Assembly (NCBI GenBank): GCA_009922615.1
Contig: RFVF01000024.1
Coordinates: 1-64,000 of the forward strand
DNA: 64,000 bases
Reading direction: 5' to 3'
From: Pseudomonadota bacterium
Lineage (GTDB): Bacteria; Verrucomicrobiota; Verrucomicrobiia; Limisphaerales; SXTU01
Shown here: positions 32,752 through 51,110 of the stretch, one piece after another
How positions within the stretch are numbered: the stretch's first letter is position 1
Layout of the letters: every line of letters starts with the position of its first letter
Position numbers and translations under genes: made by a program
Notes under the pieces: generated by a model
The model's database searches: none
What the model was told of the DNA's origin: nothing
The model's input: the letters and a program-made list of their open reading frames with translations, nothing else

Positions 32752-34755
32752 TTACCCATTCACCGCTTGCAGCATCGCCACGGCGGGCATCGGCCGCGCT
32801 CCCTTCTCTGCTGGCCCCGCAGGCTGTCCCATGCGCGTCACCACGGGCAGCAGGCCACCTTCGCGATAGAGCGTGATGGACACGTGTTCGTTGCGGCGGA
32901 TGCAGGCCTTGATGGCGTCCGGGTCCTTGTCGCATTGGAGCAGCGTCTTCCAAGAATAAATGTGCTTGGGCTTGTGGAAGTCGCTGTTGGCGATGAAGGG
33001 GAGGCGTTTGAGGCCCACGGGCGCAAAGATGTCGTTGCGGTTGGCGATCTCCCATGCGTCGAGCAGCGGCGCGAATTCCTCCTGATTCTCCCAGAGATAG
33101 AGCGTGTTCTTGCCCCACTCGCTCTTGAAGACGTGCGGGTGGGACGCGACGGCCAGCGCGCCCTGTGCATGGAGCTGCGCGATGGTTTCCGGCAGATCCA
33201 GCGCCGAGGCGATGGGCATCTGCATGTCAATGCCCAGCAGGTGCGCGGAACTTTTCTTCGTCAGGCCGTCCTTGTTGAACTCGATGCCGCTCAACACCAG
33301 CATCCCATACTTCCGCCACGCCCGGCGGCGCTCGCGGTCCAGCACTTCGAAGTATTCCTCAAGCTGGCTCTCGGCGAGGACGAGGTTGCTCAACTTGCTT
33401 AGTTTCCCGATGACCCGGCGCGGGTCCGCGAGATGGTCGGTGATGCAAATGCAGTCAAAGCCGCGCGGTCCGTAGAAGTCCACCAGCTCTGGCACAGTGA
33501 GGCTGCCGTCGGAGTAATTGCTGTGAATGTGAAAGTCGCACAGCAACGCCCGGCGCGCGGCGATGCCGTCCACCACGGCGGGCGCGGTGGGTGCCACGGC
33601 GGTGAGCAAGTGCGGCTTGGGCACCGGCGCGAACTTCGACCAGTCACCGGCGTCGTTGCACTGCTTCAAGACCAGTTCCGCGATACGTAAGGCGGCATCC
33701 GGGTGTGAGTGTTTGATCAGGTTGGCCCGCCACTCGTGCCATAGCCGGGCCTGCTTGGCGAACGCGGCCTCGATGATTCCGGGCACCTCGCGGTTGCGCT
33801 CCGCCACCATGCCCAGACCCAGCTGCTGGATGAGCTGCGCGTTGCCCGTCTCCTGCCCGGGGATGATCTGGTTGATGACCATCGGGCAGCGCGCGGCGAT
33901 GGCTTCCTGCACGACCGCGCCGCCGGCCTTCCCGATGAGAACGTGGTGCGAAAGCATCAATGCGGGCATCTGGTTGGTCCAACCAAGCACCTGCACGCGC
34001 CCGCCATGGTGGCGGAAGCGCTCCTGCAACTCCGCCTTCAGCTCGGCGTCGCGGCCCGTGGTGATGGTGAGGTGAATGCGCTCGTTCTCCAGCAACCGGT
34101 CGAGCACCTTGCCGCACTTTTTCTTCCCGTGGTTGATGACGTAAAGCAGCTTGATGGGGCCGTCCTCGGCCAGCGGGAACGGCACGATGCCCGGCGCGGC
34201 GAACTGCGGGCTTACGGGGAAGCCCAACGCATGGATTCGCTCGGCTGGCACGCCCGCGTGGTGCAGCACGGTGGCCGTCGGGCGGTTCGCGACGACAAAG
34301 GCATCGCTCGGCGCGCGGTGCCACGCCGCGTTCACGGAGATGGAGTCCGTCACGATGGTCACGAAGCGGAACGGCTTCTCCGAATGGTCGCGGAAGAGCT
34401 CCTTGATGACCGGCGCGTAGGCGGGATAAGTGGAGACGACGCAATCCGGCTGCGCCACGCGCAGCACGTCGCCCAGCGCGGTGCGCAGGCGCGTGAGGCC
34501 CGTGAGGCCGCTGTCCGCCACGGACACGTGGTCAAGCAACGAGAAGATGCCGCGCCAGAGCGTGGGGGCGTAGCGGACTACGCCGAGATGCGCATGCTTC
34601 ACAAAGGTGTTGAGCCGACCGTAAGTGCTCTCGAACAAGTCCAGCACCTCGACTTGGGTGGCCGGCTCGATGAGTTCGAGGGCGTCGCGGAGATTGCGCG
34701 CGGCGGCGTTGTGACCTTCGCCGAAGCCTGCGGTGAGAATGATAACCTTCTTCAT
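32752..34755 (-). CDS. MGDG synthase-type glycosyltransferase fused to PHP-domain phosphoesterase
   Basis: N: KKVIILTAGFGEGHNAAARNLRDAL...GKAGGAVVQEAIAARCPMVINQIIPGQETGNA; C: LLCDFHIHSNYSDGSLTVPELVDFYGPRGFDCICITDHLADP. Confidence 0.82.
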   Translation of the reverse strand: MKKVIILTAGFGEGHNAAARNLRDALELIEPATQVEVLDLFESTYGRLNTFVKHAHLGVVRYAPTLWRGIFSLLDHVSVADSGLTGLTRLRTALGDVLRVAQPDCVVSTYPAYAPVIKELFRDHSEKPFRFVTIVTDSISVNAAWHRAPSDAFVVANRPTATVLHHAGVPAERIHALGFPVSPQFAAPGIVPFPLAEDGPIKLLYVINHGKKKCGKVLDRLLENERIHLTITTGRDAELKAELQERFRHHGGRVQVLGWTNQMPALMLSHHVLIGKAGGAVVQEAIAARCPMVINQIIPGQETGNAQLIQQLGLGMVAERNREVPGIIEAAFAKQARLWHEWRANLIKHSHPDAALRIAELVLKQCNDAGDWSKFAPVPKPHLLTAVAPTAPAVVDGIAARRALLCDFHIHSNYSDGSLTVPELVDFYGPRGFDCICITDHLADPRRVIGKLSKLSNLVLAESQLEEYFEVLDRERRRAWRKYGMLVLSGIEFNKDGLTKKSSAHLLGIDMQMPIASALDLPETIAQLHAQGALAVASHPHVFKSEWGKNTLYLWENQEEFAPLLDAWEIANRNDIFAPVGLKRLPFIANSDFHKPKHIYSWKTLLQCDKDPDAIKACIRRNEHVSITLYREGGLLPVVTRMGQPAGPAEKGARPMPAVAMLQAVNG

Positions 34756-35122: not shown

Positions 35123-35617
35123 ATGAACACCGAATCCATATTAAAAACCCGGGCCGTGAAGGCACGGCTCAAGTCCACCCTGTTGGCCGCGTTGGCCGGC
35201 AGCTTGTTGCTCAGCCCCACAGCGTCCATCGCCGCGCCCATGTTCCTCGGCTACGCAGCCGGCGACGCGACCAGCACCGATGTCACGCTCTGGACGCGTG
35301 CGGTGGATACCAGCGCGCCGGCGGCCATCCAACTCTTCGCGCAGTTGACCACGGACCAGACGTTCAATACCGGGGTGTTCAACTTCCTCGTCACGACGGT
35401 CGCCACAAATGATTACACGGTGAAGGTGCAGGTCACGCAGCTTCAGCCGTCGACGCGCTATTATTACCGATTCACGGACGGGGTAAACACGACCGGCATC
35501 GGCACATTCAAGACAGCCCCGGCCCCGAACGCGGCGGCCCCGGTGCGCTTCGCGTTCAGTGGGGACAACGATGGCCTGACCTTGGCGACACGATGTATGA
35601 GAATGCCAGTGCACTGA
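35123..35617 (+). pseudogene. N-terminal part of PhoD-like alkaline phosphatase, separated by frameshift
   Basis: Signal peptide; MFLGYAAGDATSTDVTLWTRAVD...LQPSTRYYYRFTDG...VRFAFSGDNDG; the phosphatase core continues in another frame. Confidence 0.7.
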
Positions 35618-38600
35618 CCAACGCCTCCATCGGTCAGCCCTACACGAACTCGCCTTCCGTGACGCTGTCCGGTTCCTCGTTGAGCCTCAACGGGGTGCCG
35701 GTAGCGGGCACCACGTTTGCCACGAGGCAGCAGTTGTTTGATGACTACAACAAGAAGTATCGCGAGAACTTCCTGCCGGTGAACACCGGCGGGCAGGCTG
35801 GTCTCCAGCCGCTCTATGCGGGTCAGGGCGTTTATACGCTTTATGACAACCACGAGTTTGGAAACCTCCAATACATCAACGGCGGCGCGCCAGCCGGCGG
35901 TTCCATCGGCGGACCTACGGGCACGGACATGGCCACCGGCCGCGGCGTGGACGCGCGCGACAACGGCACGGGCAACGTCGGCAACACGAACGACACGAAC
36001 TTCTCGGCGACGGACTACATGAACCGCTCGCCGGGCTTCCAGACCCTCCAGCAAGTCTACCTGAACTATCAACCCATCGCGGACCGTGGCTTGGTCAACA
36101 ACCCCGCCGACCCGCGAATGCACGGCACCAAGCAGCTTTACTTCGCCCAGCCTTGGGGCAAGCACGTGCTCTTCGTTAGCACCGATGGTCGCGCGTATCG
36201 CGACCTTCGCATCAAGACCGCGACAGGCAGCGCGGATGACACCGGTCCACGCGCGGACAACCCCGGCCGCACCATGCTCGGTGCGACGCAGCTCGCTTGG
36301 TTGAAGCAAACTCTCCTCACCGCGCAGTCCAACGGCGTCGCGTGGAAATTCGTGGCGGTCTCGGACCCCATTGATCAGATCGGCCCGGTCGGCGCTCCGC
36401 TCACGGGTGTGGTCAACTCCAGTGGCAACGGCAGCTACTCGCCGGTCGCCAGCGACGGCGGCAAGTCCTGGATCGGCGGCTACCGCGCCGAACGCAACGC
36501 GCTGCTCAAGTTCATCGCCGACAACGGCATTAAGAACGTCGTGTTTCTGGCCACGGACGACCACCAGAACCGAATCAACGAGCTGACTTACTCGCCTACC
36601 GGCCAGACCGGGGTGCAGGCCAGCTACGTGAAGGTGCCGTATTGCTTCTCCATCGTCGCCGGGCCGCTCGGCGCGACCGGGCCGGACGCCTTCCTCAACC
36701 ATGACTTCGCCAGCGTCAAGACGATGGCCGACAGCTTCGTGGCCGCGCAAACGGCGGCAGGCGTCGAGCCGTTCGGCCTGCAAGGTTACCCCGGTTTGCG
36801 CAACGTCTTCCGGGAGGGCGACGCGAACGCGGGCACTACCCCGAGCGCCGTGGACTTCTATAGTCCCGACACTTTCAACTATGCCACGCTGGACGTCAGC
36901 GCGGATGGCAAGCTACTCACAGTGGCGACCCTCGGCATCACGGCCACGGCAAGGAATAGCGCGTTGGAATACAACGCTGCCACGAACGCGGTGCGGACCA
37001 TCCTGAGCTTCCAAGTGCCCGCCGCCACGGACCCCAGCCCGATGCCTGCGGTGCAGGGCGGCTCGGTGACGCTCTCGGTCAACGACCTCGGGGCGGGCAC
37101 GACCTATCAATGGTTCCGCAACGGCTCCGCCTTGCTGGGCGCGACCAATGCCTCGCTCGCGCTCACCAACTTGATCGGCGACCGCGGCACCAACCACGCA
37201 GGCCCGAGCACGCTTGTCCCGCCGGTGCTGGACCCGCTGCTGCCGAATTACTCGTTCCAGGCGCTCTTCTCCGCCGGCGAGTCCGTGAACAACAAGGCGG
37301 ACGGCGTCACGCCTTATCGGATGGCGGGCATTCCTGACGGGCTCGGTGCGTTCGACAACAACGATGGCACGTTTACCGTCCTGATGAACCATGAGCTGGG
37401 TAGCACCGTGGGCAGCAACCGCACGCACGGGGCCAAGGGGGCCTTTGTCTCCCGCTGGGTCATCGCGAAGAGCAACTTGGCCGTGTTGAACATCAGCGAC
37501 CTAATCACGAACGTCTTCCTGTGGGACACGAACAGCAGCGTTTACACGAATTCGACGAGTTATGCGTTCACGCGGTTCTGCTCGGCGGACCTGCCGGCGG
37601 CGAGTGCGTATTACAACGCCGGGACTGGCTTGGGGACGACCAACCGGATCTTCATGAACGGCGAGGAGAGCAACAAGGAAAGCAAGGCGTGGGCGCACAT
37701 TGTGACCGGACCGGACGCGGGCAAGACCTACGAGCTGCCGCACTTGGGCAAGATCTCTTGGGAGAACGCGCTGGCCAACCCGGTGCCGCAGGACAAGACC
37801 ATCGTGGGCTGCGATGACGACAGCTCGGTGAACAACTCGCACGTGCACTTCTACATCGGGACGAAGAAGAACACGGGCTTGGACATCGACAAGGCGGGCC
37901 TGACGGGCGGGACGCTCTACGGCGTGAAGCTCAACGGCTTCGCGCTGGAGACGGACGCAAACGTGCCGGTTAACGGGACGGCGTTCAGCCTGTTCAGCTA
38001 CGGCAACGTGGCGAACCTGACCGGGGCGCAGATTGAGGCGCAGGCGGTGGCTAACGGGGTGACGGCGTTCCAGCGGGTCGAGGACGGCACGTGGGATCCG
38101 AACCATCCGGCGGACTACTACTTCGTGACGACGGCGAGCATCACGGGCAAGAGCCGGCTGTGGCGGTTGCGGTTTGCGGACATTGCGAACCCGGAGAACG
38201 GCGGGACGATCGACCTGCTGCTGGACGGGACGCAGGGACACAAGATGTTCGACAACATCAGCTTCGATGCAGATGGCAACCTGGTGTTGCTGGAAGACCC
38301 GGGCAACAACGCGTATGTGGCACGGGTGTGGAAGTATTTACCGGCCACGGGGGCATCGTTCCCGATCGCTACGTTCCGGCCGAGCCTGTTCACGCCGGGC
38401 ACCCCAGGCTTCCTCACACAAGATGAGGAAACATCGGGTATCATCGATGTCACCTCCATCCTCGGCTACAAGGCCATGCTGCTCGTGGCTCAAATCCACA
38501 CGGTCAACGGCCTGCCGGCGGGCACCGCTGGTGAAATGGTGGAGAACGGGCAGCTCCTGCTGATGCGTCAGGTGGACAACGGCAGCTACACGGTGGTCAT

Positions 38601-39132
38601 CAGCAACGCCTTTGGGGCCATCACCAGTGTCGTGGCCAGTTTGAACGTCACCGCGCCCCCCGAGTTGGCTCACAGCGCCTTCCGCAACAGCCTGCCGGGA
38701 GCCACGGTTAGCAACGGCGGCACGCTCACGTTGAACGTCCCTGCCGGCGCACTCACCGGCACCGGCCCGTTCAGCTACCAGTGGTTCATCAATGGCTCGC
38801 CCATCCTCAACGCGACCAACGCCACCCTCACGGTGCCGGGCTTCACTGGCAGCTTCGCGGGCAACTACTCCGTGCAAGTAAGCAACAGTGCCGGCACCGC
38901 CACGAGCGTGAGCGTCCCGGTCAGCACGGCGGACATCGCGTTCTTTGGCGGGGTCGCCATTGATGGCCCGGCCAACGCGCGGTATCGCCTCGAATATCTG
39001 AGCGACGTGAACAACGCCAACTCGTGGACCACCTTGACCAACATCGTGCACGCGGGTGGCCGCCAGTTCTACCTCGACACCACGTCCTCGGGGGCGCAAC
39101 GCCGGTTCTTCCGCGCGGTGCCCACGCCCTGA
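35593..39132 (+). CDS. PhoD-like phosphatase core, Ig-like domain split by PhoX-like domain, second Ig-like domain, secreted
   Basis: LGDTMYENAS, LYDNHEFGN, FLATDDHQNR (PhoD-like); MAGIPDGLGAFDNNDGTFTVLMNHELG, HIVTGPDAGKTYELPHLGKISWENALANPVPQDKTIVGCDDDS (PhoX/DUF839-like); TYQWFRNGSALLGATNASLALTNL and VDNGSYTVVISNAFG (Ig halves). Confidence 0.78.
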   Translation: MYENASALTNASIGQPYTNSPSVTLSGSSLSLNGVPVAGTTFATRQQLFDDYNKKYRENFLPVNTGGQAGLQPLYAGQGVYTLYDNHEFGNLQYINGGAPAGGSIGGPTGTDMATGRGVDARDNGTGNVGNTNDTNFSATDYMNRSPGFQTLQQVYLNYQPIADRGLVNNPADPRMHGTKQLYFAQPWGKHVLFVSTDGRAYRDLRIKTATGSADDTGPRADNPGRTMLGATQLAWLKQTLLTAQSNGVAWKFVAVSDPIDQIGPVGAPLTGVVNSSGNGSYSPVASDGGKSWIGGYRAERNALLKFIADNGIKNVVFLATDDHQNRINELTYSPTGQTGVQASYVKVPYCFSIVAGPLGATGPDAFLNHDFASVKTMADSFVAAQTAAGVEPFGLQGYPGLRNVFREGDANAGTTPSAVDFYSPDTFNYATLDVSADGKLLTVATLGITATARNSALEYNAATNAVRTILSFQVPAATDPSPMPAVQGGSVTLSVNDLGAGTTYQWFRNGSALLGATNASLALTNLIGDRGTNHAGPSTLVPPVLDPLLPNYSFQALFSAGESVNNKADGVTPYRMAGIPDGLGAFDNNDGTFTVLMNHELGSTVGSNRTHGAKGAFVSRWVIAKSNLAVLNISDLITNVFLWDTNSSVYTNSTSYAFTRFCSADLPAASAYYNAGTGLGTTNRIFMNGEESNKESKAWAHIVTGPDAGKTYELPHLGKISWENALANPVPQDKTIVGCDDDSSVNNSHVHFYIGTKKNTGLDIDKAGLTGGTLYGVKLNGFALETDANVPVNGTAFSLFSYGNVANLTGAQIEAQAVANGVTAFQRVEDGTWDPNHPADYYFVTTASITGKSRLWRLRFADIANPENGGTIDLLLDGTQGHKMFDNISFDADGNLVLLEDPGNNAYVARVWKYLPATGASFPIATFRPSLFTPGTPGFLTQDEETSGIIDVTSILGYKAMLLVAQIHTVNGLPAGTAGEMVENGQLLLMRQVDNGSYTVVISNAFGAITSVVASLNVTAPPELAHSAFRNSLPGATVSNGGTLTLNVPAGALTGTGPFSYQWFINGSPILNATNATLTVPGFTGSFAGNYSVQVSNSAGTATSVSVPVSTADIAFFGGVAIDGPANARYRLEYLSDVNNANSWTTLTNIVHAGGRQFYLDTTSSGAQRRFFRAVPTP

Positions 39133-47391: not shown

Positions 47392-48576
47392 GTGACGAAC
47401 GTCCCGCACAACGCCAAGCGCACCGTCGGATGGATGGGTATTCATCGTGGCCACAAGGCGCGGCCCGTCGAGTGGCTGGCGGAGAAGTTTATCTATCTGA
47501 TCTCGCTCACGGCGATCTTGATGGTGTTCCTCATCTTCGTGTTCGTTGCGCGCGAGGCGATGCCGCTAGTGATGGGCAAGATGAACAGCGCCGCCGCGAG
47601 GCCGGTCATCGCGGCGAAGGAGATGGACAAGCTCAAGCCCGACGAGTTGCGGGACTACCTCGGCTTGACGGCGAAGGAGTTTCAACAGCTCGACAAGGAG
47701 GCGCTCACGGCGCTCATGGAGGTGCGCGAGGAAGAGGCCAAGGAAGCCCCCAAGGACAAGGACGCCACCGTGAACACCACGGAATGGAAGTATCTCCTTG
47801 GTGCGCACCATTGGTCCGACAGCCGCCCCGAGGATCGCTACGTGTGGCAGCCCATCGGGCGTATCCACAAATACAATCTCTGGCCGCTCATTATTGGCAG
47901 CCTCAAGACCACCATCGTCGCGTTGCTCTTCAGCGTGCCGCTCGCGCTCGCAGCGGCCATCTATGTGTCGCAGCTTTCGTCGCCATCGCTGAAGGAGTGG
48001 CTCAAGCCAGCGATTGAACTGCTTTCCGGCGTGCCGTCGGTAGTGCTGGGCTTTTTCGGGCTGATCGTGATGGCGACGTTTCTTCAGGGAACATTCGGCT
48101 ATCAGTCGCGGCTGAACGCGTTCGTCGCGGGCATCGCGCTGGGGCTGGCGGTGATCCCCGTCGTCTTCTCCATCGCCGAGGACGCGCTGACGAGCGTGCC
48201 GCGCAGCTACACGCAGGCGGCGCTGGCGCTCGGGGCTTCGAAGTGGCAGGCGGCGTGGCAAATCGTCCTGCCGGCGGCCGCGCCGGGAGTGTTCGCGGCG
48301 GTGGTGTTGGGCTTTGGCCGCGCGATCGGCGAGACGATGGTCGTCCTCATGGCCAGCGGCAACGCCAGCATTATGTCGCTCAGTCTCTTCGACTCCACGC
48401 GTTCCATCACCGCGACGATCGCGGCGGAACTGGCCGAGGCGGTCTTCGGCGGGCACCACTACCGGATGCTGTTCCTCATCGGGGCGATGCTCTTCATCGT
48501 GACCTTTCTTACGAACCTCGCGGGCGACCTCATCATGCACCGGCTCAAGGGGCGACTGGAGGGAAGGGCCAAATGA
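47392..48576 (+). CDS. pstC: Phosphate ABC transporter permease
   Basis: LLSGVPSVVLGFFGLIVMA, ALTSVPRSYTQAALALGASKWQAAWQIVLPAAAPGVFAAVVLGFGRAIGETMVVLMASGN. Confidence 0.9.
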   Translation: MTNVPHNAKRTVGWMGIHRGHKARPVEWLAEKFIYLISLTAILMVFLIFVFVAREAMPLVMGKMNSAAARPVIAAKEMDKLKPDELRDYLGLTAKEFQQLDKEALTALMEVREEEAKEAPKDKDATVNTTEWKYLLGAHHWSDSRPEDRYVWQPIGRIHKYNLWPLIIGSLKTTIVALLFSVPLALAAAIYVSQLSSPSLKEWLKPAIELLSGVPSVVLGFFGLIVMATFLQGTFGYQSRLNAFVAGIALGLAVIPVVFSIAEDALTSVPRSYTQAALALGASKWQAAWQIVLPAAAPGVFAAVVLGFGRAIGETMVVLMASGNASIMSLSLFDSTRSITATIAAELAEAVFGGHHYRMLFLIGAMLFIVTFLTNLAGDLIMHRLKGRLEGRAK

Positions 48577-49523
48577 ATCCCGCTACGGCCTCATCGAACA
48601 AGCTCGACTTTCGCTCGCGCGGCTTCGACTTCGTTTCGTTTGCCTTCACCAGCCTCACCGGGCTGGCGACGCTGCTCATCCTCGCGATCCTTGCCATCAT
48701 CCTCGCCAACGTCGTGTGGCATGGCTGGGGCACGTTCTCGTGGCGCTTCGTCACGGGCAGTGCCGATCAAGACATGTTCGATGTGAACAAGGCGGGCATC
48801 CTCCCGATGGTCATCGGCACCGCGCTGCGCGTGCTGGTCATGACGCTCTTCGTGGTGCCCATCGGCGTCATCACGGCGGTCTATCTCACCGAATACGCGC
48901 AGTCCACCGCAGTCACCACGCGCATCATTCGCGGCGCAGTGAACAATCTTGCTGGCGTGCCAAGCATCGTCTTCGGCCTGTTCGGCCTCGGCTTCTTCAT
49001 CAGCTTCATCGGCGGCGCGATGGACGCGGGCCGCGCGGAGCCGCACTGGGGCAAGCCCGCGATCCTCTGGGCTTCGCTCACGCTCGCGGTGATGACGCTG
49101 CCGCTCGTCATCGTGGCCACCGAAGAATCGCTCCGCGCCATCACGCCCGGACTGCGCGAAGCGAGCCTGGCGCTCGGGGCGACCAAGCTGGAAACCATTC
49201 TCAAGATCGTCCTGCCCGAGGCGCTGCCGGGCATTCTCACTGGCGGCATTCTCGCCGTGGGCCGGGCGGGCGGTGAAGTCGCGCCCATTCTCTTCACCGG
49301 CGCGGCTTACTACATGAGAGACTTGCCCAAGGCGGCGACGGATCAATTCATGGACCTCGGCTACCACGTTTTCATCCTTAGCACGCAATCGCCAGACATC
49401 GAGAAGACCCGGCCCATCCTTTTCGCCACCGTGCTGGCGTTGCTGCTCCTAACGCTTTCGCTCAACCTCATCGCCGTCGTGGTGCGCGCCCGCGTGCGCA
49501 AGCGGATGCGCGCGGGACATTGA
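48573..49523 (+). CDS. pstA: Phosphate ABC transporter permease
   Basis: True start MNPATASSNK at ATGA overlap with pstC; NNLAGVPSIVFGLFGLGFFISF, LREASLALGATKLETILKIVLPEALPGILTGGILAVGRAGGEVAPILFTGAAYY. Confidence 0.9.
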   Translation: MNPATASSNKLDFRSRGFDFVSFAFTSLTGLATLLILAILAIILANVVWHGWGTFSWRFVTGSADQDMFDVNKAGILPMVIGTALRVLVMTLFVVPIGVITAVYLTEYAQSTAVTTRIIRGAVNNLAGVPSIVFGLFGLGFFISFIGGAMDAGRAEPHWGKPAILWASLTLAVMTLPLVIVATEESLRAITPGLREASLALGATKLETILKIVLPEALPGILTGGILAVGRAGGEVAPILFTGAAYYMRDLPKAATDQFMDLGYHVFILSTQSPDIEKTRPILFATVLALLLLTLSLNLIAVVVRARVRKRMRAGH

Positions 49524-49544
49524 CACTCAACTCGCTTCTCTGAC

Positions 49545-50360
49545 ATGGCTGCCTTCTCCCCATCGCAAGTGACGCTCAACGCCAGCAAACCCGCCGAGGG
49601 CGCGGGCGCGCCGTTGATCCAGACCGACGGCGTCAACCTCCACTACGGCTCGTCGCACGCGCTGAAGAACATTTCCGTGACGCTCGGCGAGCGGCACGTC
49701 ACCGCGTTCATCGGCCCATCGGGCTGCGGCAAGTCCACCTTCCTCCGCTGCTTCAACCGGATGAACGATTTGATCGACTCCGTCCGCATCACCGGCTCGA
49801 TCAAAATCGGCGGGCAGGACATCTACAGTCCGGACGTGGACGTTATCGAGCTGCGCAAGCGCATCGGGATGGTCTTCCAGCGTTCGAACCCGTTCCCCAA
49901 GTCCATCTACGACAACATTACCTACGGCCTCAAGCTGCACGGCATGAAAGCGAAGTCCGACCTCGACGCCACTGTCGAGCAAAGCCTGCGGGGCGCAGCG
50001 CTGTGGGACGAGGTGAAGGACCGGTTGCACACCAGTGCGCTGGGTCTTTCCGGCGGCCAGCAGCAGCGGCTCTGCATTGCCCGCGCCATCGCCATCAAGC
50101 CGGAGATTCTCCTGATGGACGAGCCGGCCAGCGCGTTGGACCCGATCGCCACGGCGAAGATCGAGGAGCTGATTCTCGAATTGAAGAAGGACTTCACCAT
50201 CGTCATCGTCACGCACAACATGCAGCAGGCCGCGCGCATCTCCGACCACACCGCATTCTTCTACCTCGGCGAGTTGATCGAGTTTGGCACGACCGCGAAG
50301 ATTTTCACCAACCCGGCGAAGCGGCAGACGGAGGACTATGTGACCGGGAGGTTTGGATGA
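49545..50360 (+). CDS. pstB: Phosphate ABC transporter ATP-binding protein
   Basis: [25 protein letters not shown]...[43 protein letters not shown]. Confidence 0.95.
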
Positions 50361-50447
50361 GCCTAACCAAGAAAGTAATTAGTGATTAGTCCGTCACCTC
50401 CGCACTCGCTACTTACCAAACTCTGATTACTAATCACTTTTCACCCA

Positions 50448-51110
50448 ATGCTTCCCCACGACCACGAATTCGCCGTCCTCAAGGAAAAACTCCTCACCAT
50501 GTCGAGTTTGGCCGCCAGCTCGCTTCAAAACGCCATCAAATCACTGGTCGAGCGGAACGACGACCTTGCCCGCCAGGTCGAGCAGGCGGACGACCAACTC
50601 GACGCGTTGGAGATTGAACTGGATGAACTCGCCATTGTGCTCCTGTCGCGCGGCCCCATAGCCAGCGATTTGCGAATGATCGCCGTCGCCATGAAGATTA
50701 CCCATGATCTGGAGCGAGTTGGCGACGAGGCCACCGCCATTGCGCGCAGCGCGGTCGAGTTGAACAAGGAGCCGCAGCTCAAGCCCTACGTGGACATCCC
50801 GCGCATGGCGACGATGGCGCTGGAGATGTTGAACGATTCGCTGGAAGCCTTCGTGAGTCGCGACACCACCCGCGCCCGCGCGGTGTTGCCGCGCGACAAG
50901 GACGTGGATGCGCTGAACAGGCAGCTACACCGCGAATTGATTTCCTACATGCTGGAACGCCCGTCTGTGGTCACCCGCGCGCTCCACCTCATGCAAGTGT
51001 CCAAGCGCATCGAACGTATCGCCGACCACGCGACGAACATTGCTGAGGAAGTGGTTTACCTCTACGAGGGTCGCGACATTCGCCACACCGGTAAGGACGC
51101 GCACGCATAG
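50448..51110 (+). CDS. phoU: Phosphate transport system regulator PhoU
   Basis: LKEKLLTMSSLAASSLQNAIKSLVERNDDLARQVEQAD...RMIAVAMKITHDLERVGDEATAIARS...ERIADHATNIAEEVVYLYEGRDIRH. Confidence 0.92.
   Translation: MLPHDHEFAVLKEKLLTMSSLAASSLQNAIKSLVERNDDLARQVEQADDQLDALEIELDELAIVLLSRGPIASDLRMIAVAMKITHDLERVGDEATAIARSAVELNKEPQLKPYVDIPRMATMALEMLNDSLEAFVSRDTTRARAVLPRDKDVDALNRQLHRELISYMLERPSVVTRALHLMQVSKRIERIADHATNIAEEVVYLYEGRDIRHTGKDAHA

Follow-up and report, generated by a model that had tools for sequence, protein, structure and literature searches.

PhoD phosphatases (PF16655 and PF09423; B. subtilis PhoD, 2yeq) combine a PhoD_N domain with a catalytic domain that carries LGDTxYE and NHE motifs, behind a secretion signal. 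PhoX phosphatases (PF05787; P. fluorescens PhoX, 3zwu and 4a9v) have a propeller fold and stand alone. Composite phosphoesterases as such are already known: Psip1 is a PhoX-like phosphatase, and its family includes members with a phytase-like domain or with repeated domains (PMC11098088). Nesting in an immunoglobulin-like (Ig) domain and a PhoD partner are not reported in the accessible part of that source.

We analysed a 64,000-nucleotide stretch of DNA (the window) from a lineage related to lake Verrucomicrobia. It contains a gene which, in our judgement, probably represents a secreted two-headed protein, consisting of PhoD, an Ig-like domain with a PhoX propeller in its E-F loop, a second Ig-like domain and a tail. 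The unit of split Ig and nested PhoX, written here as Ig[PhoX], would be older than the fusion to PhoD, its N-terminal partner would have been swapped and its PhoX cassette would be exchangeable, and the role of the protein would be phosphate release near the Pst system. In the openly accessible literature, which was covered in part and makes novelty provisional, we found no description of PhoD and PhoX in one chain or of PhoX nested in an Ig loop.

Domain organization of the composite gene

All features described are on the forward strand. The open reading frame at 35593-39132 (1179 aa) encodes in a single frame a PhoD-like catalytic part (35593-37011; Pfam PhoD, 2.1e-23), which is under purifying selection (omega 0.13-0.15), the first half of an Ig-like domain (37027-37173), a PhoX-type beta-propeller phosphatase domain (37195-38568), the second Ig half (38569-38649), an intact second Ig-like domain (38680-38922; Pfam Ig_3, 4.3e-8) and a conserved C-terminal tail (ADIAFFGG...RRFFRAVPTP; 38923-39132). 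The tail was delimited by alignment, is present in the relative G308 and recurs in most of the order's Ig[PhoX] proteins. All of the sequence strings that the first-pass annotation had quoted are located at the positions it gave, in this one frame. The preceding open reading frame (35123-35617) encodes a signal peptide and PhoD_N (Pfam, 2.8e-18 over 35123-35614).

Both PhoD-type matches in the window exceed the curated Pfam cutoffs (PhoD_N 66.7 bits, cutoff 30; PhoD 83.5 bits, cutoff 27). In G308 the two domains share a single frame, and the same-genus copy, in genome G004, gave a phmmer match to the family. The LGDTxYE and NHE motifs are found in the window; the first metal motif is SGDNDG, opposite SCANW in the aligned solved homologue. 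In contrast to known members of the family, the composite continues at the C-terminus into a second enzyme unit, and it is distant from the NCBIfam PhoD equivalog, for which the G004 copy scored 68.6 bits against a cutoff of 1000. As previously noted from the sequence, a pst locus is nearby: pstC-pstA-pstB-phoU (47392-51110; NCBIfam TIGR02138, TIGR00974, TIGR00972 and TIGR02135) begins approximately 8 kb downstream of the composite gene.

The reading frame is interrupted in the window copy

The first-pass annotation had treated 35123-39132 as one gene. In the window copy this region is not a single reading frame, and a 58-bp deletion near 35578 had been overlooked. DNA alignment with the congener G004 placed the junction at 35578-35579 and showed that 19 codons and 1 nt, the counterpart of MRPYALASTLPAQALDFYIN, are missing from the window between SGDNDG and LGDTMYE; in G308 the stretch is intact. 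Through the deletion a stop is reached at 35615-35617, which ends the upstream frame. In the assembled sequence the frame shift severs the signal peptide and PhoD_N from the remaining protein, and this copy would give no secreted PhoD, whereas the frame from signal peptide to catalytic domain is uninterrupted in G004 and G308. Programmed frameshifting was ruled out as the cause, since about 19 conserved codons are absent.

Downstream of the break, more than 3.5 kb are free of further stops. Omega against G004 was 0.13 for PhoD and 0.15 for PhoX, with an overall range of 0.13-0.17 in the two domains. Such strong codon constraint past the break points to a very recent event or to an error of assembly. 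One reading, which we rate as somewhat less likely than not, is that the lineage has a genuine gene which this species is now losing by decay into a pseudogene, with PhoD gone from the window copy and PhoX impaired in G004. The frameshift in the window and the loss of invariant PhoX positions in G004 would both fit such decay; against this, with the constraint and the single stop any decay must be very recent, and short-read assembly error accounts for the frameshift equally well.

A PhoX-type domain nested within the protein

The first-pass annotation had placed a PhoX-like block at 37.2-38.5 kb within the PhoD-bearing protein, and both profile and fold comparison supported this placement. 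The 37.2-38.6 kb block matched PhoX PF05787 with 27.7 bits (2e-6), barely above the gathering cutoff of 24; the related gene in G089 scored 43.2 bits. Foldseek identified P. fluorescens PhoX (4a9v and 3zwu) as the best PDB matches, with E-values of 1e-16 to 5e-16 and a probability of 1.0. AlphaFold2 (AF2) models of the nested region had mean pLDDT values of 84.8 and 86.8, with the propeller mostly at 90-98. A search of the PhoX profile against PDB chains by sequence gave no match, and PDB relatives were found by fold only. Identity to P. fluorescens PhoX was 12% in the Foldseek alignment, and the domain differs from that enzyme in being nested in an Ig domain and not stand-alone. Neither the PhoD nor the PhoX domain is close to a characterised enzyme. 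A PF05787 search of the window's own genome listed one match elsewhere, below the cutoff, and did not list the window itself; this result was set aside.

The weak sequence similarity to characterised PhoX would also fit a domain that has the PhoX fold but is no phosphatase and does something else, such as acting as a structural propeller. We consider this unlikely. In an alignment of 44 sequences, in which relatives were 42-64% identical to the window, 43 columns were invariant, including a Cys and many Asp, Glu, His and Asn, residue types that bind metals. Furthermore, the top PDB match is PhoX itself, and relatives are joined to 5'-nucleotidase, phytase-like and PhoD domains.

The flanking sequences are probably two halves of one Ig-like domain

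Strand E (SLALTNL) closes the first Ig half at 37173, and strands F and G (QVDNGSYTVVISN) open the second at approximately 38569. Since the first half stops after strand E and the second opens at strand F, the PhoX domain occupies the E-F loop. These boundaries were drawn from the alignment of relatives, a scan of joined halves and AF2 strands. When the halves of the window were joined in silico, the Ig_3 score rose from 14.1 to 23.3 bits (cutoff 30, not reached), and Ig_7 gave 25.4 bits (cutoff 27.3, not reached). Five relatives (G003, G010, G046a, G089 and G308) exceeded a curated Ig cutoff after joining; in G308 the I-set scores of the separate halves were 14.5 and 12.5 bits, and that of the joined halves was 26.0 (cutoff 23.7).

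AF2 placed Ig strands B, C and E before the propeller and F and G after it, with pLDDT of about 75-90 in both halves. The model of the G003 protein has A/A', B, C and E strands in the first half and F with a long G strand in the second. In I-set Ig domains strand A' pairs with strand G, so this distribution favours one closed Ig fold. Strand assignment in the models favours packing of the two halves into a single domain, and the earlier proposal that they form one Ig is supported by joined scores that exceed those of either half and by Ig strands on both sides of the insert.

The same architecture is present in three genomes

PhoD with Ig[PhoX] was found in three genomes: that of the window (G000), G004 from the same genus and at the same locus, and G308 from another family of the order. 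The G004 gene has the same neighbours as the window, a gene like that at 32752-34755 and a response regulator. In G308 the entire protein is encoded in a single frame with the architecture uninterrupted, and by BLASTP it is 67% identical to the window in PhoD and 75% in PhoX. Among the three carriers only G308 appears intact in both domains. The PhoX domain of G004 (L049) has a 189-bp in-frame deletion which removes 63 residues, invariant positions among them; the two congeners thus have one damaged enzyme half each.

A metagenome chimera, in which contigs with PhoD and PhoX were fused at similar Ig sequence, has in its favour the draft state of the genome (331 contigs), the 58-bp frameshift in the window and the deletion in G004. 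However, the same junctions occur in three genomes of two families whose proteins are 55-89% identical by larger domain, the neighbours are shared with G004, and both domains are under purifying selection. We regard a chimera as extremely improbable, and reject it as an assembly artefact on the grounds that G004 and G308 carry the same architecture.

The Ig[PhoX] unit appears to predate the fusion to PhoD

Among the 320 genomes of the order that were searched, nine contain Ig[PhoX], in 11 genes. The upstream region is PhoD in G000, G004 and G308, a phytase-like domain (PF13449) in G010, G009 and G046a, a long region without Pfam match in G003, G005 and G046c, and only a short leader in G089 and G046b. 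Eight related genes therefore have a split Ig with PhoX inside and no PhoD. Outside the order, no split Ig was seen in the samples of the class and phylum (384 and 388 genomes, overlapping), and it was absent from approximately 70 other PhoX relatives, most of which start at a GPSSS-like motif. Ig[PhoX] is established within this one order, whereas PhoD with Ig[PhoX] was seen here in three genomes. The first-pass annotation had named a long-established architecture as evidence against its own reading, and this holds in part.

In the PhoX tree all genes with PhoD fall into a single clade (support 100/95), which is nested among the Ig[PhoX] genes and has a phytase-like carrier as its sister (100/99). 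The data did not reject one origin for the Ig split (p-AU 0.51). A single clade of phytase-like carriers was rejected (p-AU 1.5e-8), and since these do not group together on the PhoX tree, the N-terminal partner and PhoX have been reshuffled. Uninterrupted PhoD-Ig homologs, which the first-pass annotation had proposed to look for, were not encountered: none of the six PhoD relatives scanned has an Ig after PhoD.

The first-pass annotation had suggested that an insertion joined the two phosphatases, that is, that a PhoD-Ig gene was there first, that PhoX entered its Ig domain and that the two-enzyme protein arose in this way. This fits the present-day anatomy of the window, and the in-frame position of PhoX in an Ig of a PhoD protein was confirmed. 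As an account of origin we find it quite improbable, because eight other genes have the split Ig with PhoX but no PhoD, the PhoD carriers branch from within the Ig[PhoX] group, and the PhoD relatives scanned have no trailing Ig and so include no such parental gene. Together these observations suggest that the insertion preceded the fusion. Most likely, PhoX was inserted into an Ig domain first, and a ready-made unit of Ig[PhoX] with Ig and tail was later set behind PhoD.

Evidence for exchange of the PhoX cassette

The phytase-like carriers G009 (L054) and G010 (L051) are 97-100% identical in most of their phytase-like and C-terminal parts. The G009 PhoX domain, in contrast, is only about 70% like that of G010 and about 90% like that of G003 (L055). 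The switch points are near strand E and the insertion point, and within the following Ig domain. This suggests that the PhoX cassette of one congener, G009, was replaced in place, in drafts of many contigs where the boundaries could be partly assembly effects. In these three genes the replacement of a nested catalytic domain can be followed directly.

The codon-usage comparison proposed in the first-pass annotation likewise set PhoX apart. Between the window and G004, dS was 0.42 in PhoX and 0.82-0.98 in the other domains, and codon choice in PhoX is shifted. Low synonymous divergence and enrichment in CTG, GCG and ACG codons mark a block at 37510-38240, the upper edge of which lies before about 38422, within the sequence that G004 has lost. 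We read this block as a sign of past exchange. The mosaic in G009, together with the low dS and shifted codons in the window, points to replacement of PhoX cassettes by homologous recombination. A more general proposal is that an Ig split at the E-F loop is a natural exchange socket, in which PhoX cassettes are swapped while the N-terminal enzyme changes independently, giving modular secreted multi-phosphatases; we put this forward tentatively, as a possibility with a little less than an even chance of being right.

Predicted function and significance

The composite protein is predicted to be exported, and its PhoD and PhoX domains to cleave phosphate esters, either in the periplasm or extracellularly. 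With two phosphatases, a wider range of extracellular phosphate esters could be used and organic phosphorus scavenged. The split Ig may close around the insert, because the propeller termini lie close together, and would then serve as socket and spacer, with the Ig domains keeping the propeller away from PhoD. The Pst system, whose genes lie at 47.4-51.1 kb, would import the released phosphate, and the composite gene may be co-regulated with it.

A single secreted chain that holds two unrelated phosphatases suggests that these bacteria use composite enzymes to scavenge organic phosphorus. Surveys that tally phoD and phoX separately would count such a composite as two genes or miss it. The nesting of a sizeable enzyme in a loop of an Ig domain is also structurally instructive and could guide enzyme scaffolding.

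Other composite phosphatases

Phytase-like Ig[PhoX] proteins of the same order (G010 and G046a) have the split Ig in common with the window and differ in the first enzyme. The joining of a PhoX-fold family to a phytase-like domain is shared by phytase-like PhoX relatives here and by Psip1 (PMC11098088). Two Bacteroidota proteins (L079 and L082) similarly have two phosphoesterase-type domains in one secreted protein, but in these PhoX follows the phytase-like domain without a split Ig, and a T9SS tail is present.

Further arrangements were observed. Another two-enzyme phosphatase of the order, at L070:2007-6407 (G103), has PhoD fused to a PF04185 phosphoesterase in a single 1467-aa frame. In Hydrogenibacillus schlegelii (L105:6452-10276), PhoX is followed by a metallophosphatase/5'-nucleotidase, also in a single frame. 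Tandem PhoX-PhoX proteins are encoded at L063, L064, L066 and L179 (G143, G116, G091 and G181, respectively) and at L079.
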